A stretch of 64,000 bases of DNA. It comes from Thiobacillus denitrificans ATCC 25259 (GTDB lineage Bacteria; Pseudomonadota; Gammaproteobacteria; Burkholderiales; Thiobacillaceae). A model generated the notes under the pieces. That model was not told the origin of the DNA, searched no databases, and was given only the letters and a program-made list of their open reading frames with translations. Location: assembly GCF_000012745.1 (NCBI RefSeq), contig NC_007404.1, forward strand, positions 1,488,001-1,552,000, in the 5' to 3' direction. Positions 2,776-55,350 of the stretch are shown here, in pieces (position 1 is the first letter of the stretch; each line of letters begins with the position of its first letter). The translations under genes and the position numbers were made by a program.

Positions 2776-2800
2776 ATTCCGGAATTCGAAGGAGAAAACA

Positions 2801-3499
2801 ATGGACCTCAATACCCTGCTCTTCGGCGTCTACCCCTACGTCGCCCTCACGGTGTTCCTGCTCGGCAGCTGGATACGTTTCGACCACGAGCAATACACCT
2901 GGAAAAGCGATTCTTCGCAGCTGCTGTCGAAAAAAGGCCTGCGGCTGGCGAGCAACCTCTTCCACGTCGGCATCATCGGCCTGTTCTTCGGCCACGCCGC
3001 GGGCCTGCTCATCCCCCACAGCGTCTTCCTCGCGCTCGGCGTGTCCGACCTGACCCATCAGTGGATCGCCATCAGCGCCGGCACCGTCTTCGGCACCCTG
3101 ACGCTGCTCGGCGCGGCCCTGTTGTGGGTGCGCCGCATGTTCACGCCGCGCGTGCGCGCCGCCTCGCGCCGCGTCGACCTCCACATCCTGGGCTGGCTCG
3201 CGCTGACTGCCTTCATCGGCCTGTCGACGATCCCGGCGTCGATTCACCACGCGAACGCGGGCGACGCGAGCACCATGATCCGGCTCGCCGACTGGGTGCA
3301 GAGCATCGTCTACCTGCAGCCGAAGCCGGCGCTGCTTCGCGACGTCGATCTCGTCTACAAGCTCCACGTCTTCGTCGGCGTCTCGGTGTTCCTGTTCTTC
3401 CCGTTCACCCGGCTGGTCCATATCTGGAGCGCGCCCTTCGGCTACCTCGGCCGCGCCTACCAGATCGTGCGCAGCAAGCGCGGCCTGGTGCGGGGGTGA
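2801..3499 (+). CDS. narI: Respiratory nitrate reductase gamma subunit (cytochrome b)
   Basis: This 232-residue integral membrane protein has five hydrophobic segments and is the quinol-oxidising subunit of NarGHI. The four haem-ligand histidines fall where they do in E. coli NarI (56, 66, 187, 205): here His55 (NLFHVG), His65 (FFGHAAG), His189 (YKLHVFVG) and His207 (RLVHIWS). It starts with ATG after AAGGAGAAAAC. It is the last of the four nar structural genes. The next gene starts 44 bases further on and is probably in the same transcript. No narK-type transporter follows it. Confidence 0.96.
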   Translation: MDLNTLLFGVYPYVALTVFLLGSWIRFDHEQYTWKSDSSQLLSKKGLRLASNLFHVGIIGLFFGHAAGLLIPHSVFLALGVSDLTHQWIAISAGTVFGTLTLLGAALLWVRRMFTPRVRAASRRVDLHILGWLALTAFIGLSTIPASIHHANAGDASTMIRLADWVQSIVYLQPKPALLRDVDLVYKLHVFVGVSVFLFFPFTRLVHIWSAPFGYLGRAYQIVRSKRGLVRG

Positions 3500-3543
3500 T
3501 GAGGAATGGCCGCGGATTCCGGCGCCGATGCAAGGAGACTGAA

Positions 3544-5097
3544 ATGACCCACGTTGTCATCCTCGGCGCCGGCATCGCGGGCGTGTCCGCGGCCTACGCG
3601 CTGAAATCCCGGCTCGGACCCGACGACTCGGTGACGGTCGTGTCGGACAAGCCCTACTTCCACTTCGTGCCCTCGAACCCCTGGGTCGCGATGGGCTGGC
3701 GCGAGCGTGCCGACGTCGCGTTTCCGATCGGCCCCTATCTCGAATCGCGCGGCATCGTGTTCATTGCGAGCGGGGTGCGCTGCATCCAGCCCGACATCAT
3801 CCAGATCGACCTCGAGAACGGCGACGTGCTGTTCTACGACTATCTGCTGATCGCGACCGGCACGGCTCCGCTGGCCGACGAAGTCCCGGGCATGGCCGAG
3901 CACACCGAGTCGGTGATCCACATCGAACAGGCCGAGCGCGCGCTCGCCGCGTATCGCGCCTTCCTGGAGCGTCCCGGGCCGGTCGTGATCGGCGCGGCGG
4001 CGGGCGCGAGCATGCTCGGTCCGCTCTACGAATACGCCTTCCTGATCGACGCCGACCTCAGGCGGCGCAACATTCGCGAGCGCGTCCCGATCACGCTGGT
4101 GACGCCCGAGCCCTGGCCCGGTCATCTCGGTCTGGGCGGCGAAGGAACGAGCCGGGGCGCCGTCACCGCGGCACTGGCCGACACCGGGATCCGCGTGATC
4201 TGCAACGCGCTTACGACCCGCATCGACCGCGACACGATCCACGTCGCGGAAGTGACTGCCACGGGCAGCGTCAAGCGGACCCATGCCCTGCCCTCCGCCT
4301 ATTCGGTTTACTGGCCCGCGTTCGGCGGCGTGCGTGGCGTGCGCAGCGCGAGCGATCTCGTCGACGCGCGCGGCCTGGTCGTCGTCGACGAATATCTTCG
4401 CAACCCCGAGTACCCCAACGTCTTCGGTCTCGGCGCCTGTGTCGCGCGCGCGCCGGTCGAGGCCACGCCGGTCGCCGTCGGCGCCCCCGAATCGGTCTAC
4501 TCGATCCAGAAGGCCGGCGAGATCGCGGTGCAGAACATCCTCGCCGACCTGGCGGGCGCGCCGCCGGTCAGCCATGTCCCGCAGCGTGCGCGCTGGCTCA
4601 GCGACATGGGGACGAATGGCGCCGCGTATCAGTCCGAGCCGCAGGTGCCGCTGCGCGACGTCAACTGGATGCGGCAGGGGCGCTGGGTACACCAGGCGAA
4701 GGTCGATTTCGAGAAATATTTCGTCAACACGATCCGCCTGCATCCAGCCGACGAGGTCACCGCGGCCGCCTCGAGCATCGCCGGCCTCATGACGCGGGCA
4801 CTTGCCGGCAAGAACGGCGGGCACGACGGCCCGGCCGGAGCGGACCTCGCGGGGAACGGCAAGCCTTGGCAAGTCCGCCTGCCGCAGGGCCCTGGCGTCG
4901 AGCTGCGCGCCCTCGCCGAATCGCTCGGCCGCGCACCCGACGCGCTGGCCGGCGAACTGCTCGCGGCTGCCGTGTCCGACGCGAAGTCCTACCTCGACCC
5001 TGCCGCGGTCGACGCGATGGCCCGCGCCCGCCGCCACTTGCTGGTGGAAGACCTGCCCGAGCGCGAGCCCGGTGCGGAACGCCGCGGGGGAACCTGA
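3544..5097 (+). CDS. FAD-dependent oxidoreductase of the sulfide:quinone reductase fold, atypical
   Basis: This 517-residue protein opens with a dinucleotide-binding motif (VVILGAGIAGVSAA). It keeps the SQR/flavocytochrome c sulfide dehydrogenase architecture: ATGTAP near residue 104, a second nucleotide-binding region around 146-160, NVFGLGACV near 292 and KVDFEKYF near 386. SQRs use redox-active cysteines, one of which follows the GA.AGA motif; here that position is Met157 (AAGASMLGP). The only cysteines are Cys80, Cys220 and Cys299. Residues ~435-517 form an extra helical tail not usual in SQR. Start chosen at 3544 because AAGGAGACTGAA precedes it. It follows narI in the same direction, so a nitrate-respiration role is likely, but the substrate is unknown. 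True sulfide oxidation is doubtful. Confidence 0.7.
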   Translation: MTHVVILGAGIAGVSAAYALKSRLGPDDSVTVVSDKPYFHFVPSNPWVAMGWRERADVAFPIGPYLESRGIVFIASGVRCIQPDIIQIDLENGDVLFYDYLLIATGTAPLADEVPGMAEHTESVIHIEQAERALAAYRAFLERPGPVVIGAAAGASMLGPLYEYAFLIDADLRRRNIRERVPITLVTPEPWPGHLGLGGEGTSRGAVTAALADTGIRVICNALTTRIDRDTIHVAEVTATGSVKRTHALPSAYSVYWPAFGGVRGVRSASDLVDARGLVVVDEYLRNPEYPNVFGLGACVARAPVEATPVAVGAPESVYSIQKAGEIAVQNILADLAGAPPVSHVPQRARWLSDMGTNGAAYQSEPQVPLRDVNWMRQGRWVHQAKVDFEKYFVNTIRLHPADEVTAAASSIAGLMTRALAGKNGGHDGPAGADLAGNGKPWQVRLPQGPGVELRALAESLGRAPDALAGELLAAAVSDAKSYLDPAAVDAMARARRHLLVEDLPEREPGAERRGGT

Positions 5098-6889: not shown

Positions 6890-8695
6890 ATGCCCATGAA
6901 CCGCTTTTTGCTCTGGCTGCTCCTCAGCCTCGTCGCGTCCCCGCTGCGCGCCGCGCCTGACGGGGTCGTCGCCGTTTCCCATCCGGCCGCGGCCGCCGCC
7001 GGCGCGCGCATGCTCGCCACGGGCGGCAACGCCGTCGACGCCGCCGCGGCGGTGCAGTTCGCGTTGAACGTGGTCGAGCCGCAGTCGTCCGGCATCGGCG
7101 GCGGCGGCTTCATGCTGATTCATCTCGCCAAGACCGGCGAGACCGTCATCGTCGACTCGCGCGAGCGCGCACCGGCTGCGTCCCGCGCCGACATGTTCGC
7201 GCCCGGCGGCGCGCCGATGGCGTTTCCGCTCGCCTCGACGAGCGGGCTTGCGGTCGGCGTGCCGGGTACCGTGCGCGGCGTCGACACGGCGCTGCGCCGT
7301 TGGGGCACGATGGCGCTCGCCGACACGCTCGCCCCCGCGATCGAACTCGCCGCGGGCGGCTTTCGCGTCAACCGCTTTCTCGCTGCCGACATCGCCGACG
7401 ACGGCGGGCGGACAGCCATCCATCCGGAAACCGCTGCGATCTTTCGGCCCGGCGGCGTGCCGTTGGCCGAGGGCGACTGGCTGGTGCAGCCCGATCTTGC
7501 GCGCACGCTCAGACTCATTGCGACAGGTGGGCCAAAGGTTTTTTACGAGGGTCCGCTCGCGCGCGCGATCGTCGAAGCCCAGCAACGGACACGCGGCGAG
7601 TTGGGCGAGCCCGGCCGCGGACGCATGGCAATCGCCGACCTGCGCGACTACACGGCCGCGATCCGGCGTCCGCTCACGGGGCAGTACCGCGGCTGGACCG
7701 TGGCGAGCATGCCACCCCCGTCCTCGGGCGGCCTGACGTTGCTGCAGACGCTGGGCCTGCTCGAGCGCTTTCCGCTCGGCGATACGACACAGGGTTACGG
7801 CTTCGGCAGCGCGAAAACGGTGCACCTCATGATCGAAGCGATGCGCCTCGCCTTCGCCGACCGCGCCGTCTGGATCGGCGACGACGACGCACGCGCCCTG
7901 CCCCAGGCCGCGCTGCTGCATCCGCAGTACCAGGCCGCACGCGCCGCGCTCATCGATCCGGCGCGACGCATCGAACAGGCAAGCGCCGGCGACCCGACAC
8001 GCTGGGCCCCCGCGGCAACCAAGGCGCCGCAACGCATCCGTAGCAGGGCGGAAAGTCCGCAGACGACCCATTTCTCGATCGTCGACCGCTGGGGCAACGT
8101 CGTGAGCTATACGAGCACGATCGAATACACCTGGGGCGCGGGCATCACCGTGCCGGGCTACGGCTTTCTGCTCAACAACGAACTGACCGATTTCAATTTC
8201 GTGCCGAGCGCCGACAGCGCGACCGGCAATCCCGGCGCCAACGACGTCGCGCCCGGCAGACGTCCGCGATCGAGCATGGCACCGACGCTGCTTCTGAAAA
8301 ACGGGCGTCCGGTCGCGGCCTACGGCTCGCCGGGCGGCGCGACGATCATCAACTCGGTGCTCAACATGACGCTCAATCTCGTCGACCACGGCATGACGCC
8401 GGGTCAGGCGATCGCCGCGCCGCGCGTCTCGGTCACGAGCGCTGCAGGCAAAGTCGCCTGCGAGGGCGGCGAGGATTTCATGCAGCCGCGCCTGAGCATC
8501 GCGGTGCAGGACCGCCTTCGCGCGCTCGGACACGTCGGACTGGGAGAAGCCGGGACGGACGGCTGTCAGGGGAGGATCGGTTCGGTGCAGGCGGTCGTCG
8601 TCGACCTGACCAGTGGCGCGCAGTACGGCGCCGCCGATCCGCGCCGCGAAGGTACGGTGATCCGGGTAGGTCCCGGCGCGCCCCTCGCGCCCTGA
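6890..8695 (+). CDS. ggt: Gamma-glutamyltransferase precursor
   Basis: This ~601-residue periplasmic enzyme cleaves and transfers the gamma-glutamyl group of glutathione and related peptides. It has a Sec signal peptide (MNRFLLWLLLSLVASPLRA), then HPAAAAAGARMLATGGNAVDA, the conserved SGIGGGGFMLIH, and the self-processing site PQTTHFSIVD, where the first Thr of the TTHFS motif becomes the N-terminus of the small subunit and the nucleophile. NNELTDF and YGSPGGATIINSV near the end are also conserved. A second in-frame ATG six bases on (6896) is equally good. Neighbours: nnrS upstream and a convergent diguanylate cyclase downstream, with no obvious functional link. Confidence 0.95.
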   Translation: MPMNRFLLWLLLSLVASPLRAAPDGVVAVSHPAAAAAGARMLATGGNAVDAAAAVQFALNVVEPQSSGIGGGGFMLIHLAKTGETVIVDSRERAPAASRADMFAPGGAPMAFPLASTSGLAVGVPGTVRGVDTALRRWGTMALADTLAPAIELAAGGFRVNRFLAADIADDGGRTAIHPETAAIFRPGGVPLAEGDWLVQPDLARTLRLIATGGPKVFYEGPLARAIVEAQQRTRGELGEPGRGRMAIADLRDYTAAIRRPLTGQYRGWTVASMPPPSSGGLTLLQTLGLLERFPLGDTTQGYGFGSAKTVHLMIEAMRLAFADRAVWIGDDDARALPQAALLHPQYQAARAALIDPARRIEQASAGDPTRWAPAATKAPQRIRSRAESPQTTHFSIVDRWGNVVSYTSTIEYTWGAGITVPGYGFLLNNELTDFNFVPSADSATGNPGANDVAPGRRPRSSMAPTLLLKNGRPVAAYGSPGGATIINSVLNMTLNLVDHGMTPGQAIAAPRVSVTSAAGKVACEGGEDFMQPRLSIAVQDRLRALGHVGLGEAGTDGCQGRIGSVQAVVVDLTSGAQYGAADPRREGTVIRVGPGAPLAP

Positions 8696-8698
8696 CGC

Positions 8699-10669
8699 TC
8701 AGGCGACGCGCACAGCGGGCGCGGTGTCTTCCTCGTAGAACTTGACCTGATGGCGGCCCGCCGACTTGGCGCGGTACATCGCCTGATCGGCGCGGCGCAG
8801 GAGTTGGCCGGCGCTGACGTGGTGGCCGCAGAAGGTCGTGATGCCGATGCTCGGCGTGCTGTTGTGCAGGTGCGCGCCGAGCCGGTAGGGCTGCGACAGC
8901 TTGAGCAGAATCTTGTCACCGAGTTCGGCGGCTTCGGCCTTGGCCGCCTCGGCGGTATTGCCGAGATTGCCGATGACCACGACGAATTCATCGCCGCCGA
9001 GACGGGCGACGGTATCGCTTTCCCGGACGCTCGCAAGCAGGCGCGCCGCGACCTCGACGAGAACCTGGTCGCCGGCCGCGTGCCCGAGCGTATCGTTGAC
9101 GGTCTTGAAGTTGTCCATGTCGATGAACAGCAGCGCGCCGTGGCGACCGGCGCGGCCGCTCGCGGCAAGCTGCTGTTCGAGGCGGTCGAGGAGCAGACGC
9201 CGGTTGGGCAGTCCGGTCAGGGTGTCGTTGAACGCGAGGTCGCGGATCATGATCTCGGCGGCCTTGCGTTCGGTGATGTCGAGGACGACTCCGTCGAGCC
9301 ACTGCGCGCGTCCCGCGGCATCCGAGCTGACCTGACCGCGTTCGCTGACCCAACGCGTGAAGCCGTCGCGGGCCTTGATCCGGTACTCGACGTTGTAGGT
9401 GCTTCGCTTGGCGACGGCTTCGGCAACCGCCTCGGCGACCGCGGCCCGGTCGTCGGGATGGATCAGTTCCTGGTAGGACACGTCTCCAGAAAGGAAACGC
9501 TCCGACGCCTCGCCGGTCAGCGGCGCAATGCCGCTGCTCAGCCGTCTCAGCGGTGCGGGCGATCCGACCTCGCAGCGGAACACCGCGCCCGGGATGTTTT
9601 CGACGAGCGCCTTGTAGCTGTCGAGGCTTTGAGCGAGCTTGGCCGCTGAAATCCGCATCTTGCGCCGGTGGCGGGCATTCATGTAGAGCACGGAAAACAA
9701 CAGAAAGTCGAGCGCGACCCCGCCGACGAGGACCATCGTCGGCTGCATGATTCCTTCGAGCGACTCGTAGCGTTCGCTGCTGCGGAAGCGCGCGACCCAG
9801 ATGTTTCCACCGACCTCGAGCTTCATCTCGGTCATCAGCCGCGCGTCGCGCGTCGCGCCTTCGGTGGCGTAAAGCAGGTTCTCGGGCGATGCGCCGCCGT
9901 CGAACAATTCGATCTCGAGGATTTGGGTGGGGGTGTCAAACACCCCGTCGAGCAGATCGTAGGCGCGGAATGGACTGTATACGAAGCCGAGCAGGGCCGC
10001 GCGCCGGGCCGCTACAGTGTCGATCGGCTGGCCGCTGCGGTAAACAGGGAAGTAGATCAGAAAGCCGGGCTGCACGCCCGTGCGGGTTTCCTGCACGAGC
10101 GTGACCTTGCGCGACAACGCGGGCTGGCCGCTGTCGCGCGCGCGGTCCATCGCTTCGCGGCGCGTCGGCTCGGAATACATGTCGTAACCGAAGGCGCGCA
10201 GGTTGCGCCCGCTGAACGGCTCGATGTAGACGATGCTGCTCAGCATGGCGCGCTCGCCGGGCGGAACGATCGCGTAATCCGGAAACCCCTCCGCGCGGAC
10301 GGACTGCTCGTGCGCCGCCTTGGCTTCGGGCGGCACCATGAGCGCGAAACCGGTCGCCAGAATGCCTGGCAGCGAGCGCTCGAGGTCGAGCTCGTCGACA
10401 TAGGTCCGCCACTCGCTGCGGCTGGGCACGCCACCTGCCGCAAACAGTGCGGCCCCGCCACGCAGAACCTGCTCGTAGTCGTGGATGCGATTGGTCAGGA
10501 TGTTCCGCTGCTTTTCCGCGGCGCGCATGAAACGGTCCTGATCGTGGTGGGCACGCGCGGCGTCGAAATGCTGCCAGGTCGCGAACGTGAACAGCAGCGC
10601 AACGGCGAGCACGACCCACGCCAGCGCCTGATGGTCGAGAAGTCCCCCCCGGTGAACGTCGTGGGTCAT
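8699..10669 (-). CDS. CHASE-PAS-GGDEF diguanylate cyclase, membrane anchored
   Basis: A 656-residue sensor. A first transmembrane segment near residues 15-31 and a second near 300-322 enclose an extracytoplasmic CHASE-type domain (~70-250, including LPGILATGFALMVPPE). A PAS domain follows (~350-475, ending DGVVLDITERKAAE), then a GGDEF domain (~480-640) with NDTLTGLPNRR and an intact LGGDEF. RESD five residues before GGDEF is a product-inhibition I-site. No EAL domain is present. It should make cyclic di-GMP in response to an external ligand. It runs tail to tail with ggt, only three bases apart. Confidence 0.93.
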   Translation of the reverse strand: MTHDVHRGGLLDHQALAWVVLAVALLFTFATWQHFDAARAHHDQDRFMRAAEKQRNILTNRIHDYEQVLRGGAALFAAGGVPSRSEWRTYVDELDLERSLPGILATGFALMVPPEAKAAHEQSVRAEGFPDYAIVPPGERAMLSSIVYIEPFSGRNLRAFGYDMYSEPTRREAMDRARDSGQPALSRKVTLVQETRTGVQPGFLIYFPVYRSGQPIDTVAARRAALLGFVYSPFRAYDLLDGVFDTPTQILEIELFDGGASPENLLYATEGATRDARLMTEMKLEVGGNIWVARFRSSERYESLEGIMQPTMVLVGGVALDFLLFSVLYMNARHRRKMRISAAKLAQSLDSYKALVENIPGAVFRCEVGSPAPLRRLSSGIAPLTGEASERFLSGDVSYQELIHPDDRAAVAEAVAEAVAKRSTYNVEYRIKARDGFTRWVSERGQVSSDAAGRAQWLDGVVLDITERKAAEIMIRDLAFNDTLTGLPNRRLLLDRLEQQLAASGRAGRHGALLFIDMDNFKTVNDTLGHAAGDQVLVEVAARLLASVRESDTVARLGGDEFVVVIGNLGNTAEAAKAEAAELGDKILLKLSQPYRLGAHLHNSTPSIGITTFCGHHVSAGQLLRRADQAMYRAKSAGRHQVKFYEEDTAPAVRVA

Positions 10670-10816
10670 GGCTGCGCGCCCAGCGCAGCCGCGATGCGAA
10701 GCAGAAAACCCGCTTGGGCATGCACGTCGCTCGTATCGGGCCGGCGCGTACGGGGCAGAGCAGCCGGTGACGGAAGTGCGTGGCCGCTGCTCATCGTGGG
10801 TTTACTGGTCATTCTT

Positions 10817-10837
10817 ATGCCCCTAATGACGGGGCAT
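10817..10837. repeat. Short inverted repeat upstream of the diguanylate cyclase
   Basis: ATGCCCC (10817-10823) and GGGGCAT (10831-10837) are exact reverse complements around a seven-base spacer. No T-run follows on either strand, so it does not look like a terminator. It lies ~150 bases upstream of the leftward diguanylate cyclase gene and overlaps a possible TATGAT -10 hexamer on that strand, so it may be an operator. The 386-base gap 10670-11055 holds no convincing gene. Confidence 0.35.
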
Positions 10838-10885
10838 CATACGTCCCGTCTTTCACGTTTACTGTAGGCAGATTCTGATAACCCG

Positions 10886-10918
10886 AACAACAAAACGTTC
10901 GAGTTGCAACGTCGAACG
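10886..10918 (-). terminator. Probable terminator of the leftward efflux operon
   Basis: CGTTCGA (10896-10902) and TCGAACG (10912-10918) form a seven-pair stem. The spacer contains the self-complementary GTTGCAAC. Read leftwards, the stem is followed by TTTTGTTGTT. It lies ~138 bases beyond the stop of the ABC permease gene and fits transcription ending there. The stem is less GC-rich than most in this genome. Confidence 0.5.
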
Positions 10919-11055
10919 GCGAGCAGCGTATGTGGAGTCCTGGCCCGGCGTCGCCGGCCCGCCTGAACACTCAAACGGATTGCAAAGAATACCGTTCCAA
11001 CGCCATGTTTCCAAAGAAATTCCAATCGGCATCGGACTTCCCGCAAGTGGCGGGG

Positions 11056-45079: not shown

Positions 45080-45649
45080 TCACTCCGCCTCGGGCCCGCC
45101 GGGCGGCAGCTGGTGGTGACCGACGCTCACGCGCTTGGCCTGCGGGCCTTCGGCTGCCGACATGTCCTCGATGAACTTGACCGCGTCGCCCTCGCCGAGC
45201 TGCTCGAGCCTGACATTCACGAGGTTGGCGGCACTGAAATACCGCTCCTCGCCGTCCGGGCGGCGCACAAAACCGTAGCCCTCGTCGGGATAGAGACGGA
45301 CGACCTCGCCGATGAACTCCCGGTCGTGGGTCTTGGTCTCACGGCGCAACCGCCGCGAATAGTCGTCGAGCTGGCGCCGCGCGGCGTCGAACGCGTCACG
45401 CAGCGCGACATAGACGTCTTCGTGCGCATCGCGGTTGACGACGATCTCGCTTCCCGGCACGCCGATATCGATCCGCAACTTGAATACCTTGCCCTGATGC
45501 TTGTGCTGGTGCGGCACTTCGAGCACCACGCGGCAGGACATGATCGGCTGGAAAAACGTCTCGAGCTTGTCGGCCTTCTCGCGGATGTGCGCCTCGAGCG
45601 CTTCGGAGGGCTCGATGTCGCGGAATGTGATCTGCAGCGGTGTCTTCAT
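45080..45649 (-). CDS. Ribosome hibernation factor (HPF/RaiA) fused to a cold-shock domain
   Basis: A 189-residue two-domain protein. Residues 1-105 are an HPF/RaiA (YfiA) domain, which binds the ribosomal decoding centre and silences ribosomes (LQITFRDIEPSEALEAHIRE; EDVYVALRDAFDAARRQLDD). Residues ~110-178 are a cold-shock RNA-binding domain (EFIGEVVRLYPDEGYGFVRR with the RNP-type aromatics, then NVRLEQLGEGDAVKFIED). AAGGACGAGA lies before the start. The fusion suggests that ribosome silencing and RNA binding are combined. A shorter relative of the HPF helix is reused at 55454-55690. Confidence 0.93.
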   Translation of the reverse strand: MKTPLQITFRDIEPSEALEAHIREKADKLETFFQPIMSCRVVLEVPHQHKHQGKVFKLRIDIGVPGSEIVVNRDAHEDVYVALRDAFDAARRQLDDYSRRLRRETKTHDREFIGEVVRLYPDEGYGFVRRPDGEERYFSAANLVNVRLEQLGEGDAVKFIEDMSAAEGPQAKRVSVGHHQLPPGGPEAE

Positions 45650-46753: not shown

Positions 46754-46888
46754 GGCACGGCAGCCGTGGATTCATCGTCCTAGTATGAAAGCACACCCTT
46801 GCGCCGCCTGCGTCAGGGGCAGATTCATGCCCTGCGGCGTGCGCGGCCGCCTGCCCAGCCGGTTCTTCGACCTGAAAGGAGCCCCCCG

Positions 46889-47380
46889 ATGAAAACCTTC
46901 AACGGTTTCACCCCTGTCCGCCATGACCGTCTGATCGAGGAAGCCCGAATCGATCCCTACCGCGCGACCCGCAAGCCGCCCGAGCCGACCGTGTGCCCGC
47001 AATGCAGCGCGGTATTCCACGAGGGCCGCTGGCAGTGGATCGCCAAGCCGGCGAATGCGCACGAGGAATTGTGCCCCGCGTGCCGGCGCATCGCCGAGGA
47101 ACTCCCGGCCGGTTTCGTTTCTATCGGCGGGCCCTTCTTCCAGCAGAACCGCGACGAACTGATGAACCTGATCCGCAACGAAGAAGAGCGCGCCAAGGCC
47201 GAGCACCCGTTGAAGCGCATCATGAAGATCGAGGACGACGCCGACGGCATCCTCGTGACGACGACCGAGATCCATCTCGCCCGCGGCATCGGCGAGGCGC
47301 TTCACCACGCCTACCAGGGCGAACTCGAATTCCATTACAACGAAAACGAAAACCTGCTGCGCGTCGTGTGGGAACGTTAG
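46889..47380 (+). CDS. BCAM0308-type zinc-ribbon protein
   Basis: A 163-residue cytoplasmic protein. CPQC (near residue 36) and CPAC (near 63) form a two-CxxC zinc ribbon (PTVCPQCSAVFHEGRWQWIA ... EELCPACRRIAEELP). The region after residue 100 is an alpha/beta part (DGILVTTTEIHLARGIGEAL) with resemblance to archaeal NMD3-type zinc proteins. I know it as the BCAM0308 family, whose role is not established. AAAGGAG lies ahead of the ATG. It precedes the amidoligase cluster and points the same way, with a 129-base gap. Confidence 0.8.
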   Translation: MKTFNGFTPVRHDRLIEEARIDPYRATRKPPEPTVCPQCSAVFHEGRWQWIAKPANAHEELCPACRRIAEELPAGFVSIGGPFFQQNRDELMNLIRNEEERAKAEHPLKRIMKIEDDADGILVTTTEIHLARGIGEALHHAYQGELEFHYNENENLLRVVWER

Positions 47381-47509: not shown

Positions 47510-48235
47510 ATGCACCCGATCACCTTCCGCCTGCCGATCAAGATCCTGCCGCAGCCGGACGAGACGACCTGCGGGCCGACCTGCCTGCATGCCGTCTACC
47601 GTTACTGGGGCGACGACGTCCCGCTTTCGGCGGTGATCGACCGCACGCACCGCCTCGAACACGGCGGCACCTTCGCGATTTTTCTGGCCTGCGACGCGCT
47701 GCGCCACGGCTATGAAGCGACGATCTACACCTACAACCTCACGGTCTTCGACCCGAGCTGGTTCAAACCCGGCGTCGACATCGCCGAGCGGCTTGCGCGC
47801 CAGCGCGAGCTCAAGCACGACACGCGGCTCCAGCACGTCACCGAGGGCTACCTCGAATTCCTCAGACTGGGCGGCAAGCTGCGCCTGACCGACCTGTCGC
47901 GACCGCTGATCAAGGGCCTCCTGCGGCGCAATCTGCCGATCATCACCGGGCTCAGTTCGACCTACCTCTACCGTGCGATGCGCGAACACGGCCCCGACGA
48001 CCAGCCTGACGATCTGCGCGGCCTGCCGTCCGGCCATTTCGTCGTGATCGCCGGCTACGACCGCGAGCGCCATACCCTGCTCGTCGCCGACCCTTACTCG
48101 CGCCACCCCTACACGCCGTCGCACGAGTATTGGGTCAGCATCGACCGCGTCATCGGCGCGGTGCTGCTCGGCATCGTCACCCACGATGCCAACCTGCTGT
48201 TCATCTATCCGCCGCGCGCGTTGCCGCGGGCCTGA
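47510..48235 (+). CDS. C39-like papain-fold peptidase of the amidoligase cluster
   Basis: A 241-residue protein with a C39-type (papain fold) active site: Gln/Cys motif in LPQPDETTCGPTCLHAVYRY (Cys21 nucleophile), His176 in LPSGHFVVIAGYD, and Asp194 in LVADPYS. There is no transporter or leader-binding part, so it is a free enzyme, perhaps cleaving or transferring small peptides. It is the first of four tightly packed genes; the next starts three bases on. Two in-frame regions upstream have no good start. Confidence 0.85.
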   Translation: MHPITFRLPIKILPQPDETTCGPTCLHAVYRYWGDDVPLSAVIDRTHRLEHGGTFAIFLACDALRHGYEATIYTYNLTVFDPSWFKPGVDIAERLARQRELKHDTRLQHVTEGYLEFLRLGGKLRLTDLSRPLIKGLLRRNLPIITGLSSTYLYRAMREHGPDDQPDDLRGLPSGHFVVIAGYDRERHTLLVADPYSRHPYTPSHEYWVSIDRVIGAVLLGIVTHDANLLFIYPPRALPRA

Positions 48236-48237
48236 AC

Positions 48238-49710
48238 GTGCGCGTCCTCATCGTCGTCGACGACCCGCCCGACTGGCCCCTCGACATCCCCGGCATCGGG
48301 GTCGTCGCGGCCGAGGCCTATCTGACCGACCCGACCTACGGCGACGACCGCTCGGTCAAGGTCTTCAACCTCTGCCGCTCCTACCGCTACCAGAGCACGG
48401 GCTACTACGTCTCGCTGCTCGCCGAAGCGCGCGGGCACCGCCCGCTGCCCCGGGTCGGCACGATCGAGGACCTCGCCTCGCCGAAGCTGTTGCCGCTCCT
48501 GGTCGGCGACCTCGACGCGCTGGTGCAGACCGCGCTGGCCCCGATCAAGTCGCAGAGCTTCGAGCTCAGCATCTATTTCGGCCGCAACGTCGCGAGCCGT
48601 TACGACGCCTTGAGCCAGCAGCTGTTCGCCCGCCTGCAGGCACCGCTGCTGCGTGCATATTTCGAGCGCCGCAACGGCGACTGGCGGCTCGCGGAGGTGC
48701 AGGCCATCGCGGCGAGCGAAATCCCGGTCCCGCACCGCGAGTTCGTCGTCGAGGCGGCGACGGCCCATTTCACCGGCCATCGCCGCATCACGCGCAAGCG
48801 CGCGGCGCCGCGCTTCAATCTCGCGATCCTGCACGACCCGGCCAATCCCGAGCCGCCGTCCAACGCGCGGGCGATGCGCCGCTTCGAGAAGGCTGCCGAA
48901 GAGCTAGGCCTCCAGGTCGCCTTGATCACACGCAACGACCTCGAGCGCCTGCCCCGCTTCGACGCCCTCTTCATCCGCGACACGACCTATCCCAACCATT
49001 ACACCTACAGCTTTTCGCGTCGGGCCGCCGCCGAGGGCCTGGTCGTGATCGACGACCCCGACTCGATCCTCAAATGCAACAACAAGGTCTATCTCGCCGA
49101 ACTGCACGTCCGCCACCACATTCCCGCGCCGCGAACGCTGGTCGTGCACCAGGGCAACATCGGCGCGATCGTCGCGACTCTCGGGCTGCCGTGCGTGCTC
49201 AAGCAGCCCGACAGTTCCGGATCGCTCGGCGTCGACCGGGTCGACACCGAGCCCGAGCTGCTCGCCAAGGTGAGGACAATGCTGCGCAAGTCCGAACTCG
49301 TCGTCGCCCAGGAATGGCTGCCGACGGCCTTCGACTGGCGGATCGGCGTCCTCGACCACCGCCCGCTCTACGTCTGCAAATACTTCATGGCGCCCGGCCA
49401 CTGGCAGATCGTCAAGCGCGAGCCCGGCCGCAAGGGCTACCAGGAAGGCCGCGTCAAGGCGGTCGCGGTCGCCGAGGTGCCGGAGGAAGTGATCAAGATC
49501 GCGCTGCAGACGGCCGACCTCATCGGGGACGGGCTCTACGGCGTCGACGTCAAGGTCGTCGGCAATCGCTGCTACGTCATCGAGGTCAACGACAACCCCA
49601 ACATCGACGCCGGCAACGAAGACGGCGTGCTGAAGGACGCGCTCTACCGCGAAATCATGGGCTCCTTCGTGCGTCGCCTCGAGGCCCGCAAGCTGGGTCA
49701 TCCCCAATGA
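48238..49710 (+). CDS. RimK-type ATP-grasp ligase with RLAN N-terminal domain
   Basis: A 490-residue peptide ligase. The N-terminal ~190 residues (VRVLIVVDDPPDWPLDIPGI ... FNLCRSYRYQSTGYYVSLLA) match the RimK-like ATP-grasp N-terminal (RLAN) type. The C-terminal half is an ATP-grasp domain (AVPCVLKQP-type region LGLPCVLKQPDSSGSLGVDR; metal-binding end YVIEVNDNPNIDAGNED). ATP-grasp ligases join a carboxyl group to an amine through an acyl-phosphate. GTG start is three bases after the peptidase gene; the 3' end overlaps the next gene by four bases (ATGA). Confidence 0.93.
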   Translation: MRVLIVVDDPPDWPLDIPGIGVVAAEAYLTDPTYGDDRSVKVFNLCRSYRYQSTGYYVSLLAEARGHRPLPRVGTIEDLASPKLLPLLVGDLDALVQTALAPIKSQSFELSIYFGRNVASRYDALSQQLFARLQAPLLRAYFERRNGDWRLAEVQAIAASEIPVPHREFVVEAATAHFTGHRRITRKRAAPRFNLAILHDPANPEPPSNARAMRRFEKAAEELGLQVALITRNDLERLPRFDALFIRDTTYPNHYTYSFSRRAAAEGLVVIDDPDSILKCNNKVYLAELHVRHHIPAPRTLVVHQGNIGAIVATLGLPCVLKQPDSSGSLGVDRVDTEPELLAKVRTMLRKSELVVAQEWLPTAFDWRIGVLDHRPLYVCKYFMAPGHWQIVKREPGRKGYQEGRVKAVAVAEVPEEVIKIALQTADLIGDGLYGVDVKVVGNRCYVIEVNDNPNIDAGNEDGVLKDALYREIMGSFVRRLEARKLGHPQ

Positions 49711-50939
49711 ATCCGCCTGCGCTCGACGCCTTTGCGGGTTACGGCGTCGAGCTCGAATACATGGTCGTCGCGCGCGACACGCTCGCCGTGCTGCCGATCG
49801 CCGACCGTCTGCTCGCGAGCGCCGCCGGCCGCGCGGCCAGCGCGGTCGTGCGCGGCGGTTTCGGCTGGTGCAACGAAATCGTCCTGCATCTGGTCGAGAT
49901 CAAGAATCAGGCGCCCGCCCCGGCGCTCGCGCCGCTCGCCGCCGGCTTTCAGGCCGAGGTCGCCGCGATCGGGCAATTTCTGCAGCCGCTCGGCGCGCGC
50001 CTCATGCCGACCGGTATGCATCCGTGGATGGACCCGCGGCGCGAAACCCGCCTCTGGGCGGACGATCCGGCCGGCATCTACCGCGCCTACGACCGCATCT
50101 TCGACTGCCACAGCCACGGCCAGGCCAACCTGCAGAGCATGCAGCTCAACCTGCCCTTCGCCGACGACACGCAATTCGCCCGCCTGCACGCCGCGATCCG
50201 GCTCGTCCTTCCGATCCTGCCCGCGATCGCCGCGAGCTCGCCCCTGGCCGATGGCCGTCCGGCCGCCCACCTCGACGCGCGCATGGCCGCCTACGCCGGC
50301 GCCGTCGCGCGGGTTCCCGCCGTGATCGGCGAACTCGTGCCCGACACGGCCACCGGCCGCGCCGACTATGTCGAACAGGTGCTCGCGCCGATGTACCGCG
50401 CGATCGCGCCGCTCGACCCGGACGGTGTGCTGCAGCACGAATGGCTCAACGCGCGCGGCGCAATTCCGCGCTTTGAACGCGACGCGATCGAAATCCGCGT
50501 GGTCGACATGCAGGAATGCCCCGCGGCCGACCTCGCGATCGCCGCGGCGACCGCGGCGGCGGTGCGCGCGCTCTACGACGCGACCTGGTCGTCGCTGTCC
50601 GAACAACAGGCGATCGCGACCCCCGTCCTCACGCGGCTGATGCACGCCTGCGTGCGGTACGGCGACGCGGCACTGATCGACGACGGGCCCTATCTGCGGC
50701 TGCTCGGACTACCTGCCCACCCCGTCGCGGCGGCCGAGGTCTGGCAGCACCTGATCGAAACCACCGGCGTCGGTCGCGCCGCGCCCTGGCGCGAGCCGCT
50801 GCAATGCATGCAGCAGCAGGGACCGCTCGCGCGCCGGATCTTGCGCGCCCTCGGGGCCGATGCGACGCGGCAGCGCCAGCATGCGGTCTACGAAGCGCTC
50901 TGCGATTGCCTCGATGCCGGGCGGATGTTCACGCCGTGA
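49707..50939 (+). CDS. GCS2-like (glutamate-cysteine ligase fold) amidoligase
   Basis: A 410-residue protein of the glutamate-cysteine ligase type 2 fold: YGVELEYMVV at the N-terminus (metal-binding Glu residues), CNEIVLHLVEIKNQAP, HGQANLQSMQLNLPF, and ARGAIPRFERDAIEIRVVD. These enzymes form amide bonds to a glutamate-like side-chain or alpha carboxylate with ATP. It overlaps the ATP-grasp gene (ATGA) and is followed two bases later by the amidohydrolase, so all four genes appear to be one functional unit. Confidence 0.9.
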   Translation: MNPPALDAFAGYGVELEYMVVARDTLAVLPIADRLLASAAGRAASAVVRGGFGWCNEIVLHLVEIKNQAPAPALAPLAAGFQAEVAAIGQFLQPLGARLMPTGMHPWMDPRRETRLWADDPAGIYRAYDRIFDCHSHGQANLQSMQLNLPFADDTQFARLHAAIRLVLPILPAIAASSPLADGRPAAHLDARMAAYAGAVARVPAVIGELVPDTATGRADYVEQVLAPMYRAIAPLDPDGVLQHEWLNARGAIPRFERDAIEIRVVDMQECPAADLAIAAATAAAVRALYDATWSSLSEQQAIATPVLTRLMHACVRYGDAALIDDGPYLRLLGLPAHPVAAAEVWQHLIETTGVGRAAPWREPLQCMQQQGPLARRILRALGADATRQRQHAVYEALCDCLDAGRMFTP

Positions 50940-50941
50940 CG

Positions 50942-51643
50942 ATGCCCGGGAGACCCGCGCTCCTGATCAGTTGCGAACATGGCGGCAGGCGCATTCCACC
51001 GCCCTACCGCAGCCTGTTTGCCGGCCACGACGCGCTGCTGCGCAGCCATCGCGGCCACGATCCCGGCGCGCTTGCCCTCGCACGTGAGATGGCCGCAGCT
51101 TTCGGCGCGCCACTTATCCAGTCGACGGTCAGTCGCCTGCTCGTCGACCTCAACCGCTCGCCCGGCCATCCCCGCCTGTATTCGCCGATGACCCGCGGGC
51201 TACCCGCCGCCGCGCGGCGCGAAGTCTTCGCACGCTATTACTTGCCTTATCGCGCGCGTATCGAAGCCTACGTGGCGCGCGTGATCGAAAACGGCGAGCG
51301 TCTCGTCCACATCGCGTCGCATAGCTTCACGCCGGTGCTCGACGGCGAGGTGCGCCATGCCGATGTCGGCCTGCTCTACGACCCGTGGCGTCCCGGCGAG
51401 GTCGCACTGTGCCGCGGCTGGCAGCGCGCCATCGAGGCCCGCGCGCCAGCTTGGAAGGTGCGCCGCAACTACCCCTATACCGGCAGCTCCGACGGCCTGA
51501 CCGCTTACCTGCGCAAGCGGTTCGGACCCGCGCAGTACGTGGGCGTCGAACTCGAAGTCAACCAGAAATACGTTTTCGCGCGTGGCCGCGCGTGGCGCGC
51601 GCTGCGCGAAACCCTGATCGAGACCCTCGGCGACGCGCTCTGA
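50942..51643 (+). CDS. N-formylglutamate amidohydrolase-like protein
   Basis: A 233-residue zinc hydrolase of the N-formylglutamate amidohydrolase (HutG-like) family: LLISCEHGGRRIPPPY (metal-binding), STVSRLLVDLNRSPGHPRLY (active-site Arg), LVHIASHSFTPVL (His), and VGVELEVNQKYV (Glu). The family removes a formyl or similar group from an amino acid or peptide. It is the last gene of the four-gene cluster. It could trim or release the product made by the two ligases; the true substrate is unknown. Confidence 0.92.
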   Translation: MPGRPALLISCEHGGRRIPPPYRSLFAGHDALLRSHRGHDPGALALAREMAAAFGAPLIQSTVSRLLVDLNRSPGHPRLYSPMTRGLPAAARREVFARYYLPYRARIEAYVARVIENGERLVHIASHSFTPVLDGEVRHADVGLLYDPWRPGEVALCRGWQRAIEARAPAWKVRRNYPYTGSSDGLTAYLRKRFGPAQYVGVELEVNQKYVFARGRAWRALRETLIETLGDAL

Positions 51644-51711
51644 AGCGGCGCTCGCGTTCGGAGCCGTCCGCCGCCTACAATCAGAAACGTCAACAACCCA
51701 GCCCGCGCCCG

Positions 51712-54700
51712 GTGACGAATCTTCCGATCTCGACTCGACTGCTGTTGAGCTACCTCCTCGTCGCCGTGCTGCCGCTTGCCGGCCTCGCGGCGTTCTATCT
51801 CGCCTCGTTCGAGGCCTCGCTGACGCAAACCGTGCTCGCGAACATGGCGAGCGTCGCCGACAAGAAAGCCGCGCAGATCGACAGCTACCTGCGCGAGCGC
51901 TCGGAGGACGTCGCCCAGCTCGCCCTGCGCCCCGCGGTCCGCAACGGGTTGCTCGAACTCACGCGCGCGTTTCGCGCGGGCGGCCCCGCTGCGCCGGCCT
52001 ATCTCGACGCCACGCTTCAACTGCGGCGGGCGCTCGAAGATGGCGGAGCCGCGTCGGGTTTCTACGACCTGCTGCTGGTCGACGCCGAAGGCAACGTGCT
52101 GTTCACGCTCAAGCGCGAGCCCGACCTGCTCTCGAATTTGCGCCACGGCCCCTACCGCGACACCGAACTCGCAGCGGGATACGCGCGCGCGATGCGGAGC
52201 GGCAAGCCGCTGCTCACGCGCTTTGCGCCCTACGCGCCATCCGACAACCGCCCGACGGCGTTTTACGTGACGCCCCTGCGCATCGACGGCGAGGTCCACG
52301 GCGCGCTCGCCTTGCAGCTCGACGTGCAGCGCCTCATGACGGTCACGGTCGACCGCATCGGCCTCGGACGCACTGGCGAAACGGTTCTGGCGCAACGCGA
52401 CGGGGACGAGGCGTATTACACCGGCCCGCTGCGCCACGTGCGTGACGCCGCCTACCGCTATCGCGTGCCGCTCAAGCAGGGGGCTGCCCCGATGATCGCG
52501 GCGCTCGCCGGCAGGAATGGCGACGGGGTCGTGCGCGACTACGCCGGGATCGAGACGGTCGCGGCGTGGCGTCATCTTCCGGCCCTGGACTGGGGCATGG
52601 TCGTGAAAATCGACGCCGACGAGGCGCTCGCGCCCGCGCACCATTTGCGCCAGCTGACCTACGTGGCGCTCGCGCTGTTTCTACTGCTCTCGGCTGCAAC
52701 CGCCTTTTTGCTCGGCCGCCGCTTCGCCCGCCCGATTCGCGCGATGACGCGCGTCGCGGACCAGATCGCCGCCGGCGATCTGCGTCAGCGCGTGCCGCAG
52801 GACGGAGGCGACGAACTCGGACGTCTGGCCGCTGCATTCAATCGCATGGCCGACACGCTGGCGGCGTCCTATGACAACCTCGAAGCCGAGGTGGAAAAAC
52901 GCTCGCGCGAATTGCGCGAACTTTCCGCGCTGCAGGGCGCGATCCTCGAGCACGCGGGGGCGCTGGTCGTGGTCCTCGACCGCGAGGGCCGCATCCGCCG
53001 CTTCAACCGTGCGTGCGAGGCTTTGACGCAGTATTCGTTTTCCGAGGTCGAAGGCCGCCAGGTATGGGATTTCATCCCGCCCGAGGAACGACGGATCGTG
53101 CAGGACGAGGCGTTTGCGGTCCTCTTCAACGATCCGGAGCAGTCCCGGAGCACGCTCACCAATCACTGGGTCGCGCGCGACGGAGGTCGCCGTCTGATCG
53201 AATGGTCCAATTCCGTGTTGCACGACGCGCAGGGCAAAGTCGAATTCGTCGTCGCCGTGGGCAACGACGTCACCGATAAAATGCGGGCCGAAGCCGCGCT
53301 CAAGGAAAGCGAGAGCCGGCTCAAAGAGGCGCAGCGTATCGCCCAGGTCGGCAGCTGGGCGCTCGATCTCGTCACGGGTAAATTGATCTGGTCGGACGAG
53401 ATGTTTCGCATTTTCGAAACCGACGAGGCGGCGTTCGGCCAGTCGTACGAGGCCTTCCTCGATGCACTCCATCCGGAAGACCGGGAGCACGTGAACAAGG
53501 CCTACATGCATTCGGTCACCAACCACACGCCCTATGACCTCGTCCACCGGCTTCTTCTGCCGGACGGCCGGGTCAAATGGCTGCATGGGCGCGGCGAGAC
53601 ACGCTACGGCAAGAACGGCGATCCGATCGCTTCCTGCGGTACCGTGCAGGACATCACGGCCCGCAAGAAGCAGGAAGACGCGCTGCGGCTCTACGCGAGC
53701 ATTTTCGAGCACAGCGGCGAAGCGATCCTGATCGCCGACCAGGCGCGCCACATCATCGCGGTGAACCCTGCGTTCACCAACCTGACGGGCTATGCGCTCG
53801 ACGACATCCGCGGCGAGGAACCGACCATTCTTGCCGGGGGGCAAGCGTCCGAAGAGAGCTATCGCAGCACCTGGGCGTCGCTCGAGCAAACTGGCTATTG
53901 GCAGGGCGAAATCATCGACCGCCGCAAGGACGGGACGCTCTATCCGAAGTGGATGGCGGTATCGGTCGTGCGCGATGCGGACGGCGTCCTCACCCATTAC
54001 GTCGCGAGTTTCACCGACATCACCGAGCGCAAGCTCGCAGAGGCACAGATCAAACATCTCGCCTATCACGACCCGCTCACCGGGCTCAGCAACCGCTTCA
54101 GCCTTCAGACGCAACTCGACCAGACCCTCGCGCTGGCGCGTCGCGAACAGCGCACCCTGGCGGTCGTCTTCCTCGACCTCGACCGCTTCAAGTCGATCAA
54201 CGATAGCCTCGGTCACGCGCTCGGCGACCAGTTGCTCGTCGAGGTCGCCCGTCGTCTGCGCGACAACGTACGCGACAGCGACATCGTCGCACGCCTCGGC
54301 GGCGACGAGTTCGTCGTCGTGCTGACCGAAGTGGGCGACGCAGCAGGCGCGGCGCGCGTGGCCGACAAGCTGCTGGGCGCGCTGGTTCCGCGCTACCGGA
54401 TCGGCGGGCACGCGCTGCACACCACCGCGAGCATCGGGATCTCGCTCTATCCGCACGACGGCGACGACGCTGACGCTTTGATGAAGAACGCCGATACCGC
54501 GATGTATCACGCCAAATCGCAAGGTCGCGACAACGTGCAGTTCTTTACGCCCGAGATGAATCAGTCGGTGCTCAAACGCCTGCAGTTCGACCACGATCTT
54601 CGGGTGGCCGTCGAAGCAGGCCAGTTCGAATTGCATTACCAGCCGCAGATCAACAGCACGAGCGGCCGGGTCGTGAAGGTCGAAGCGCTGGTTCGCTGGC

Positions 54701-55350
54701 AGCACCCGCGCGAGGGCTTGGTGTCGCCGGCAGAATTCATTCCGATCGCCGAGGAGACAGGACTGATTCTGCCGCTTGGTGAGTGGGTGCTCAACGAGGC
54801 CTGTCGCCAACTCAGGCTCTGGCGCGACGCGGGTATCACCGACCTGACCGTCGCGGTCAATCTTTCGGCGCATCAGTTGCACTCGCCCGCCCTGATTCCC
54901 ATGGTCGCGCGCACACTCGGCAACCACGGACTCGAGGGCGCCGACCTCTGTCTCGAAATCACCGAGTCGGTCGCCATGCGCGACACGACGGCAAGCATCG
55001 CGCAACTCCAGGCGCTGCGCGACCTCGGCATTCATCTGTCAATCGACGACTTCGGCACAGGCTACTCGTCGTTGAGTTACCTCAAGCTGCTGCCGATAGA
55101 CACGCTGAAACTCGATCAGTCCTTCGTGTGCGAGATCGAGTTCAACCCCAGCGACGTCGCGATCTGTGCGGCGACGATCGCGCTCGCGCACAGTCTCGGT
55201 CTCGAGGTCGTCGCCGAAGGTATCGAGACCGAGACCCAGCGCAGGCTGCTCGCCTCGCATCGCTGCGACTTCATGCAGGGCTATCTGTTCAGCGCGCCGC
55301 TGCCGGCAGAGCGCGCGCTTGCCTACATACGCGAGCAGCAGGCCGCGTGA
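51712..55350 (+). CDS. Cache-HAMP-PAS-GGDEF-EAL cyclic di-GMP signalling protein
   Basis: A 1212-residue membrane sensor from a GTG start. N-terminal transmembrane helix, extracytoplasmic Cache-type region (~35-300, including SVADKKAAQIDSYLRERSED), a second helix (~305-330), HAMP (RRFARPIRAMTRVADQIAAG), three PAS/PAC modules (~400-790), GGDEF (LGGDEF intact, preceded by an RDSD inhibitory site), and EAL (VEALVRWQHP, IDDFGTGYSSLSY, VAEGIETE). Catalytic residues of both domains look intact, so it may make and break cyclic di-GMP. Upstream ATG/GTG choices in this frame lie within the previous gene. Confidence 0.94.
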   Translation: MTNLPISTRLLLSYLLVAVLPLAGLAAFYLASFEASLTQTVLANMASVADKKAAQIDSYLRERSEDVAQLALRPAVRNGLLELTRAFRAGGPAAPAYLDATLQLRRALEDGGAASGFYDLLLVDAEGNVLFTLKREPDLLSNLRHGPYRDTELAAGYARAMRSGKPLLTRFAPYAPSDNRPTAFYVTPLRIDGEVHGALALQLDVQRLMTVTVDRIGLGRTGETVLAQRDGDEAYYTGPLRHVRDAAYRYRVPLKQGAAPMIAALAGRNGDGVVRDYAGIETVAAWRHLPALDWGMVVKIDADEALAPAHHLRQLTYVALALFLLLSAATAFLLGRRFARPIRAMTRVADQIAAGDLRQRVPQDGGDELGRLAAAFNRMADTLAASYDNLEAEVEKRSRELRELSALQGAILEHAGALVVVLDREGRIRRFNRACEALTQYSFSEVEGRQVWDFIPPEERRIVQDEAFAVLFNDPEQSRSTLTNHWVARDGGRRLIEWSNSVLHDAQGKVEFVVAVGNDVTDKMRAEAALKESESRLKEAQRIAQVGSWALDLVTGKLIWSDEMFRIFETDEAAFGQSYEAFLDALHPEDREHVNKAYMHSVTNHTPYDLVHRLLLPDGRVKWLHGRGETRYGKNGDPIASCGTVQDITARKKQEDALRLYASIFEHSGEAILIADQARHIIAVNPAFTNLTGYALDDIRGEEPTILAGGQASEESYRSTWASLEQTGYWQGEIIDRRKDGTLYPKWMAVSVVRDADGVLTHYVASFTDITERKLAEAQIKHLAYHDPLTGLSNRFSLQTQLDQTLALARREQRTLAVVFLDLDRFKSINDSLGHALGDQLLVEVARRLRDNVRDSDIVARLGGDEFVVVLTEVGDAAGAARVADKLLGALVPRYRIGGHALHTTASIGISLYPHDGDDADALMKNADTAMYHAKSQGRDNVQFFTPEMNQSVLKRLQFDHDLRVAVEAGQFELHYQPQINSTSGRVVKVEALVRWQHPREGLVSPAEFIPIAEETGLILPLGEWVLNEACRQLRLWRDAGITDLTVAVNLSAHQLHSPALIPMVARTLGNHGLEGADLCLEITESVAMRDTTASIAQLQALRDLGIHLSIDDFGTGYSSLSYLKLLPIDTLKLDQSFVCEIEFNPSDVAICAATIALAHSLGLEVVAEGIETETQRRLLASHRCDFMQGYLFSAPLPAERALAYIREQQAA

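Follow-up and report, generated by a model that had tools for sequence, protein, structure and literature searches.

Genome analysis of Thiobacillus denitrificans ATCC 25259 led to a four-gene operon encoding two amide ligases and two hydrolases. It lies in a stretch of 64,000 nucleotides (the window) at positions 1488001-1552000 of NC_007404.1, the single contig of 2,909,809 bases that makes up the genome. The four genes form one conserved unit, and their linkage is far beyond chance. Our preferred reading, held at a probability of roughly 0.55, is that this non-essential, conserved and cytosolic operon builds and takes down a small amide conjugate of gamma-glutamyl type. The genes are the following, in window coordinates:

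47510-48235, + strand: C39-like (papain-fold) cysteine peptidase, 241 aa, ATG start (PF13529, E-value = 2.7e-10)
48238-49710, + strand: RLAN domain and RimK-like ATP-grasp amide ligase, 490 aa, GTG start (PF14401, E-value = 5.2e-49)
49707-50939, + strand: GCS2-like carboxylate-amine ligase, 410 aa, ATG start (PF04107, E-value = 2.3e-20; 73.6 bits, cut-off 21)
50936-51643, + strand: amidohydrolase of the FGase family (N-formylglutamate amidohydrolase-like), 235 aa, GTG start (PF05013, E-value = 2.1e-28; 100.4 bits, cut-off 28.9)

All four reading frames are intact, and the starts and spacings were checked on the sequence. The RLAN gene follows the peptidase gene after a 2-base gap. The GCS2-like gene overlaps the RLAN gene by four bases (-4, ATG inside ATGA), and the FGase gene overlaps the GCS2-like gene by as many (-4, GTG inside GTGA). 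An earlier sequence-only reading of this stretch had described genes 2-3 bases apart or overlapping by four, and these spacings agree with it.

Linkage was studied in a class sample of 229 genomes, an order sample of 300 and a genus sample of 39. RLAN proteins were detected in 50 of the 229 class genomes, with a single match in each, and 41 RLAN loci were compared, namely that of the window and 40 of the 49 outside its genome. All four genes stand in order in nine of them and a GNAT acetyltransferase gene lies near RLAN in 29, apart from an RLAN-GCS2 pair (locus L056), a peptidase-RLAN pair (L069) and a locus at a contig end with none of the partners (L036). The GCS2-like protein is present in 13 class genomes and all 13 are RLAN-positive (p = 7e-10). 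Twelve of these 13 encode the peptidase, 12 encode the FGase and 11 have the full operon by coordinates; for genome G114 the full operon was inferred across two contigs that end inside the RLAN gene (L162/L163).

Additionally, a scan of 84,980 species genomes with the GCS2-like protein gave at least 561 relatives, of which the best 80 loci were kept, a set biased to near kin of the query for that reason. Among these 80, 57 carry all four genes in this order on one strand, including L115, whose FGase gene lies 2.2 kb further on. The rest comprise peptidase, RLAN and GCS2 (11 loci), RLAN and GCS2 (four), RLAN, GCS2 and FGase (four, with L118 cut at the contig start), peptidase, GCS2 and FGase (L082) and GCS2 alone in three planctomycete loci (L120, L138, L140); contig ends truncate several of these shorter sets. 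In the ten tested of the 11 peptidase-RLAN-GCS2 loci, tblastn with the window FGase found no remnant. By record title, the 57 full loci belong to six named phyla, with 42 Pseudomonadota, six Planctomycetota, three Thermodesulfobacteriota, three Myxococcota, one Acidobacteriota, one Eiseniibacteriota and one unassigned record, and the RLAN-GCS2 pair spans nine phyla. Two metagenome-assembled genomes titled Rhizobium sp. and Klebsiella pneumoniae (L074, L128) are probably wrongly titled; by their RLAN proteins they fall with Thiobacillus and uncultured Gammaproteobacteria. The nearest titled relatives include Thiobacillus loci. Gaps of 30 bases or fewer separate the genes at 64 of 67 peptidase-RLAN, 60 of 71 RLAN-GCS2 and 46 of 60 GCS2-FGase junctions. 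The neighbourhood comparison upholds the four-way linkage that the sequence-only reading had proposed as a test: the genes are not mostly apart elsewhere, as the 57 of the best 80 loci and the presence of RLAN in all 13 GCS2-like class genomes attest. In the genus of the window the GCS2-like gene occurs in 14 of 39 genomes, so the operon is accessory. No additional universal member was found; the largest flanking family reaches 27 of 121 loci and has no fixed place in them. A viral origin was also considered and rejected (0 of 83 pattern matches encode a relative).

A chance neighbourhood of unrelated enzymes might be read from the operons that lack the FGase and from the solitary GCS2 genes of the three planctomycete loci. 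It is refuted as a general account, and we give it virtually no credence: order and strand are kept in six named phyla, co-inheritance has the p-value given above, and genome G115 retains all four genes after its operon was split into peptidase-RLAN (L069) and GCS2-FGase (L161).

Concerning active sites, the peptidase residues Gln15, Cys21, His176 and Asp194 are kept in 62 of 62 aligned peptidases (of 78 available, the partial one of L139 being among those left out), with Gln15 presumably in the oxyanion role of the papain family. K283, K322, Q358, R368, D437, E449, N451, D452 and P454 are kept in all 101 aligned RLAN proteins (of 113 available), and N453 in 100. Of the 89 available GCS2-like proteins ten were aligned, and all ten keep eleven residues that include E15 and E17. 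The sequence-only reading had called intact the peptidase triad, the EVNDNPNID metal motif of the ATP-grasp protein and the ELE of the GCS2-like protein; alignment confirms all of these, and no loss of ATP- or metal-binding residues that would count against that reading came to light. Its CEHGG motif of the FGase is present but stands in part: C13-E14-H15 are among nine residues kept in 9 of 9 aligned FGases, the GG is variable among relatives, and in a larger set C13 differs in one of 50 sequences and H129 likewise in one of 50. The PF04107 match and E15/E17 place the GCS2-like protein in the GCS2 family, for which a GhExE motif is described in PMC2588565.

The AlphaFold2 model of the peptidase is of high confidence (predicted local distance difference test, pLDDT, 90.8; predicted template modelling score, pTM, 0.90), and that of the RLAN protein reaches pLDDT 90.6 and pTM 0.65. 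In Foldseek the peptidase model ranks PCAT1 and ComA peptidase domains first, followed by PeiR and the phytochelatin synthase Alr0975. With its modelled papain-like fold and Cys-His-Asp triad, the protein is predicted to hydrolyse peptides. ATP-grasp ligases (ArgX/LysX, RimK, D-Ala ligases, PsnB) fill all of the best 50 Foldseek rows of the RLAN model, which leaves the RLAN domain itself without a structural lead. A profile match to solved RimK (E-value = 7e-12) and weak Pfam matches to RimK and Dala_Dala_lig_C are also present. The window FGase matches the solved Atu2144 (2odf, E-value = 1.2e-35), and the GCS2-like protein is assigned a glutamine-synthetase fold by family. None of the four proteins attains an NCBIfam cut-off. 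Specifically, the RLAN protein remains below the RimK models TIGR00768 (43.6 of 143.4 bits) and NF007764 (PRK10446; 16.3 of 331), the GCS2-like protein below the YbdK and GshA models TIGR02050 (38.4 of 176.4 bits) and TIGR02048 (21.1 of 249.05), and the FGase below the HutG deformylase model TIGR02017 (30.1 of 278.75 bits). RimK, the S6-glutamate ligase, shares the ATP-grasp fold with the window RLAN protein, which differs from it in these scores and in its extra RLAN domain of 150 residues.

Glutathione biosynthesis (GshA/GshB) likewise uses a GCS-type ligase and then an ATP-grasp ligase. The operon could accordingly be imagined as a parallel thiol pathway, with gamma-glutamyl-Cys-X made by the two ligases and a peptidase of phytochelatin synthase type. 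The weak, sub-cut-off Pfam match of the peptidase to phytochelatin synthase and its Foldseek matches to Alr0975 would suit such a pathway. However, the operon ligases lie far under the curated cut-offs, the operon adds an RLAN domain and two hydrolases, ComA/PCAT1 peptidase domains outrank phytochelatin synthase, and glutathione synthase is encoded separately in the genome of the window (above its cut-off, at 2480897). We count this improbable pathway as rejected.

In GCS2 enzymes a gamma-carboxylate is coupled with an amine, a family chemistry given in part in PMC2588565. ATP-grasp ligases couple carboxylates with amines by way of an acyl phosphate (PMC6376114). In the conjugate reading that we prefer, the GCS2-like ligase would cap an amine after activating a carboxylate in a side chain, for which the gamma-carboxylate of glutamate is the likeliest candidate. 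The RLAN ATP-grasp ligase would activate a carboxylate on the same molecule and attach an amino acid in the way known from glutathione synthesis or RimK. The peptidase, as partner of RLAN, and the FGase, as partner of GCS2, may cleave these amide bonds or similar ones, so that the conjugate is trimmed or recycled. What was observed is the set of genes and its order, the conservation of the active sites, the joint inheritance, the pairing and the sister form; from these we infer where the system works, its substrates, which bonds are formed and in what sequence, and a product that would be a free small molecule rather than a protein. The split in G115 pairs the peptidase with RLAN and GCS2 with the FGase, as expected if each hydrolase removes or trims the bond of its partner ligase. 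In genome G216 (1.3 Mb, 98% complete) both ligases are encoded and no match to either of the hydrolases was found at an E-value of 1e-10, so the ligases look like the synthetic core. Among small open reading frames of 18-95 aa within 1.5 kb of the operon, no family was found in more than 8 of 77 loci; this, together with the ligases standing alone in a reduced genome, favours a free small peptide.

The same small open reading frames bear on the maturation of a ribosomally synthesized and post-translationally modified peptide, in which the C39-like protease would cut a leader and the ligases would modify the ribosomal peptide. The largest same-strand family, which reaches those eight loci, belongs to one lineage kind and is lipoprotein-like, presumably an entericidin. 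Peptidases of the ComA/PCAT1 kind do cut leader peptides, and ATP-grasp ligases make graspetides (PMC8939145). Unlike the C39 leader peptidases of ABC exporters, the window peptidase (241 aa) has no exporter or transporter domain by Pfam, and its operon has no widely shared small open reading frame nearby. Peptide maturation of this kind is highly improbable and was also counted as rejected.

RLAN also occurs in a sister form, in which an acetyltransferase, usually fused to a related peptidase, takes the place of GCS2 and FGase. The GNAT gene is on the same strand as RLAN in 23 of the 29 loci where it lies near, and the member scanned (L033) is a fusion of GNAT with DUF3335, which is a C39-like domain. 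Such fusions are described as frequent in PMC10318531, where Iyer 2009 is cited. A profile of 24 GNAT-DUF3335 proteins aligns with the operon peptidase with an hhalign probability of 95% (E-value = 3e-8). Strong DUF3335 matches (over 250 bits) were detected in 33 of the 229 class genomes, of which 32 are RLAN-positive, and four further matches are weak. No genome has both a strong DUF3335 match and GCS2 (32 and 13 among the 50 RLAN genomes, p = 2e-8); the GCS2 genome G004 has a DUF3335 match of 21.5 bits, below the cut-off. In a quick RLAN tree of 101 rows the GCS2 and GNAT forms part once, with full support (Shimodaira-Hasegawa-like approximate likelihood ratio test, 100). Both forms share a homologous RLAN ligase, one per genome, and a homologous C39-like domain, and they differ in that the sister form has an acetyltransferase instead of GCS2 and FGase and lies on the other side of the RLAN tree. 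GNAT and GCS2 may be equivalent, each capping an amine, with RLAN as the constant second ligase. An analogue of the sister form is the N-acetylglutaminylglutamine amide (NAGGN) osmolyte operon (PA3459-PA3461), in which a GNAT, an amide-forming enzyme and a peptidase give a capped dipeptide; it differs in its asparagine synthase-like enzyme, and RLAN, GCS2 and FGase are not named for NAGGN in the available part of the source (PMC8070244).

In two loci (L041, L051) the GNAT is without DUF3335, which is not found elsewhere in their genomes (G040, G177) either. Since GCS2-side loci without a peptidase also exist, both forms can have a capping enzyme and RLAN in the absence of the peptidase. Next to RLAN, L106 retains a short piece of the peptidase gene and L139 a partial one; no remnant was found in L127 or L056. 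In L082 of Nitrosospira multiformis Nl12 (8246-10968) the peptidase reading frame runs directly into GCS2 and RLAN is absent at the locus, which alone was examined. On a Pseudomonas aeruginosa plasmid (L196), a RimK-family (RLAN) gene has no annotated GNAT or C39 neighbour within 6 kb, and a glutamate/aspartate ABC transporter and a gamma-glutamyltransferase lie about 2-6 kb from it.

The FGase subfamily of the operon is also found at loci of Anbu, a proteasome relative. Close FGases, defined in the class sample as those over 140 bits, are present in 12 GCS2 genomes and in three others, whose loci have the FGase gene in or near an Anbu locus:

L158, 6834-9230: FGase gene adjoining Anbu (PDB match 5loy, E-value = 1.7e-88), with a transglutaminase-like gene beside the FGase
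L159, about 2700-4664: FGase gene adjoining Anbu
L160, 4071-13917: FGase gene about 6 kb from Anbu, with CP_ATPgrasp_2 and Alpha-E genes

Anbu was recognised by eye in L159 and L160. In these three loci the FGase is an addition to the described four-gene Anbu operon (Anbu, ATP-grasp, Alpha-E, transglutaminase-like). That operon resembles ours as a predicted ATP-grasp amidoligase and peptidase system, some of whose loci have the same FGase subfamily; it differs in that none of its domains occurs in the window operon, and no Anbu match was found in the genome of the window at an E-value of 1e-20. In the order sample at least 22 of 300 genomes have such an FGase, 10 beside GCS2 and 12 on the Anbu side, counts that are lower bounds because about nine candidates per genome were scored. 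The FGase adjoins Anbu in nine of the 12, lies 2.9 kb from it in G582 and has only a transglutaminase-like gene in the stretch in two (L177, L184), where Anbu is on another contig. Against a simple FGase-Anbu operon counts the strand, which is the same as that of Anbu in only four of the nine adjoining cases (L173, L174, L178, L180). Anbu itself occurs in 158 of the 300 order genomes, and the FGase therefore accompanies only a minority of Anbu loci. GCS2 was found in 0 of 15 genomes with an Anbu-side FGase by the same query that gave matches in the class and genus scans.

The nine checked FGase residues are kept in 14 of 14 Anbu-side FGases. H125 is found in all 14 as well as in 50 of 50 operon FGases, and in 0 of 4 ordinary ones. 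Anbu-side FGases nest within the operon FGases in a quick tree of 103 rows (three label changes; partial L160 and five near-duplicates dropped) and among them in a careful tree of 68 rows (two label changes; 50 of 81 operon rows and four of eight outgroup rows chosen), the bootstrap of which had not settled; a single clade of Anbu-side FGases is not rejected by the approximately unbiased test (p-AU = 0.08). Eight order genomes have two Anbu genes (G350, G437, G475, G602, G385, G590, G466, G582), and in them identity to the Anbu of L158 is 67-71% for the FGase-proximal copy and 46-55% for the other, which suggests an FGase-linked Anbu subtype. This kind (over 340 bits) was found in 15 order genomes, four of them without an FGase match (G474, G569, G414, G552).

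The Anbu operon has been discussed as a protein tagging system (PMC6376114), and the shared FGase brings up the modification of a protein end or side chain, with the ligases glutamylating a protein in the manner of RimK or TTL, and the peptidase and FGase exposing the end or removing the tag. The nearest solved ATP-grasp relatives would fit, ArgX/LysX acting on the carrier protein LysW and RimK on S6, and a C39 peptidase beside a ligase would suit a cleave-then-cap scheme. However, no conserved carrier or tag reading frame lies near the operon (77 loci), there is no universal neighbour family, the 45 largest, part of them annotated, showed no evident unfoldase, and G216 retains the ligases only. 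Protein modification is a possibility that we rate well below a small conjugate.

Several observations weigh against the small-conjugate reading. The FGase is common to Anbu loci, which others discuss in terms of protein tagging, and a protein target is conceivable because the close relative RimK acts on a protein end. Three of the best 80 loci have GCS2 alone, L082 is without RLAN at the locus, and 18 of the 80 have no FGase in the examined stretch, some of them cut by contig ends. G234, of the genus of the window, has RLAN and GCS2 with no FGase adjoining or elsewhere at an E-value of 1e-45, and GCS2 and a strong DUF3335 match are both missing from 5 of the 50 RLAN genomes.

A gene at 46799-47380 (+) ends 129 bases 5' of the peptidase start and matches PF04981 (NMD3 family, 28.8 bits); related reading frames lie near eight operon loci, mostly immediately upstream. 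An S30AE ribosome-hibernation-type protein is encoded at 45080-45649 (-) and has a cold-shock-like stretch at its C-terminal (PF00313, 24.1 bits, under the cut-off). Directly 3' of the operon is a Cache-HAMP-PAS-GGDEF-EAL protein (51385-55350, +), the listed reading frame of which overlaps the FGase gene, its domains starting later. Some neighbours hint at stress physiology and are suggestive only: in the window the S30AE-type protein together with an MscS-type channel and a protein of DNA polymerase X type, and in Oxalobacteraceae an entericidin-like reading frame and DUF883 genes.

Amidoligase neighbourhoods as a kind are already known, and Iyer et al. reportedly predicted in 2009 that RLAN neighbourhoods make peptides; others cite that work for GNAT-DUF3335 as well as for the Anbu operon. 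The operon was not found by name in the open-access literature, a partial survey and no proof of absence in print; nor did that literature yield a description of the exclusivity of the two forms, the pairwise split or the FGase-Anbu sharing, or a paper naming Anbu and formylglutamate together. The interpretation of the sequence-only reading is supported in part: its single unit of two ligases and two hydrolases stands, and of the two kinds of product it named, a small metabolite seems more probable than a modified protein end. It lacked the GNAT-DUF3335 form, the pairing, the reduced forms and the sharing with Anbu. These offer handles on the system: a ligase-only form, a capping module that can be exchanged (GNAT for acetyl, GCS2 for glutamyl) and a hydrolase common to Anbu loci. 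The operon and the FGase-bearing Anbu loci could even handle the same conjugate, as papain-type and proteasome-type versions of an old amide-conjugation system with a common deconjugating hydrolase, a speculative and rather unlikely proposal. Since the substrates of Anbu are called unknown in papers that include PMC6376114 and the FGase is common to both kinds of loci, one enzymology experiment could bear on two unsolved systems, and, if the proposal is true, identifying the product of GCS2 and RLAN would also show what the Anbu system makes or removes.

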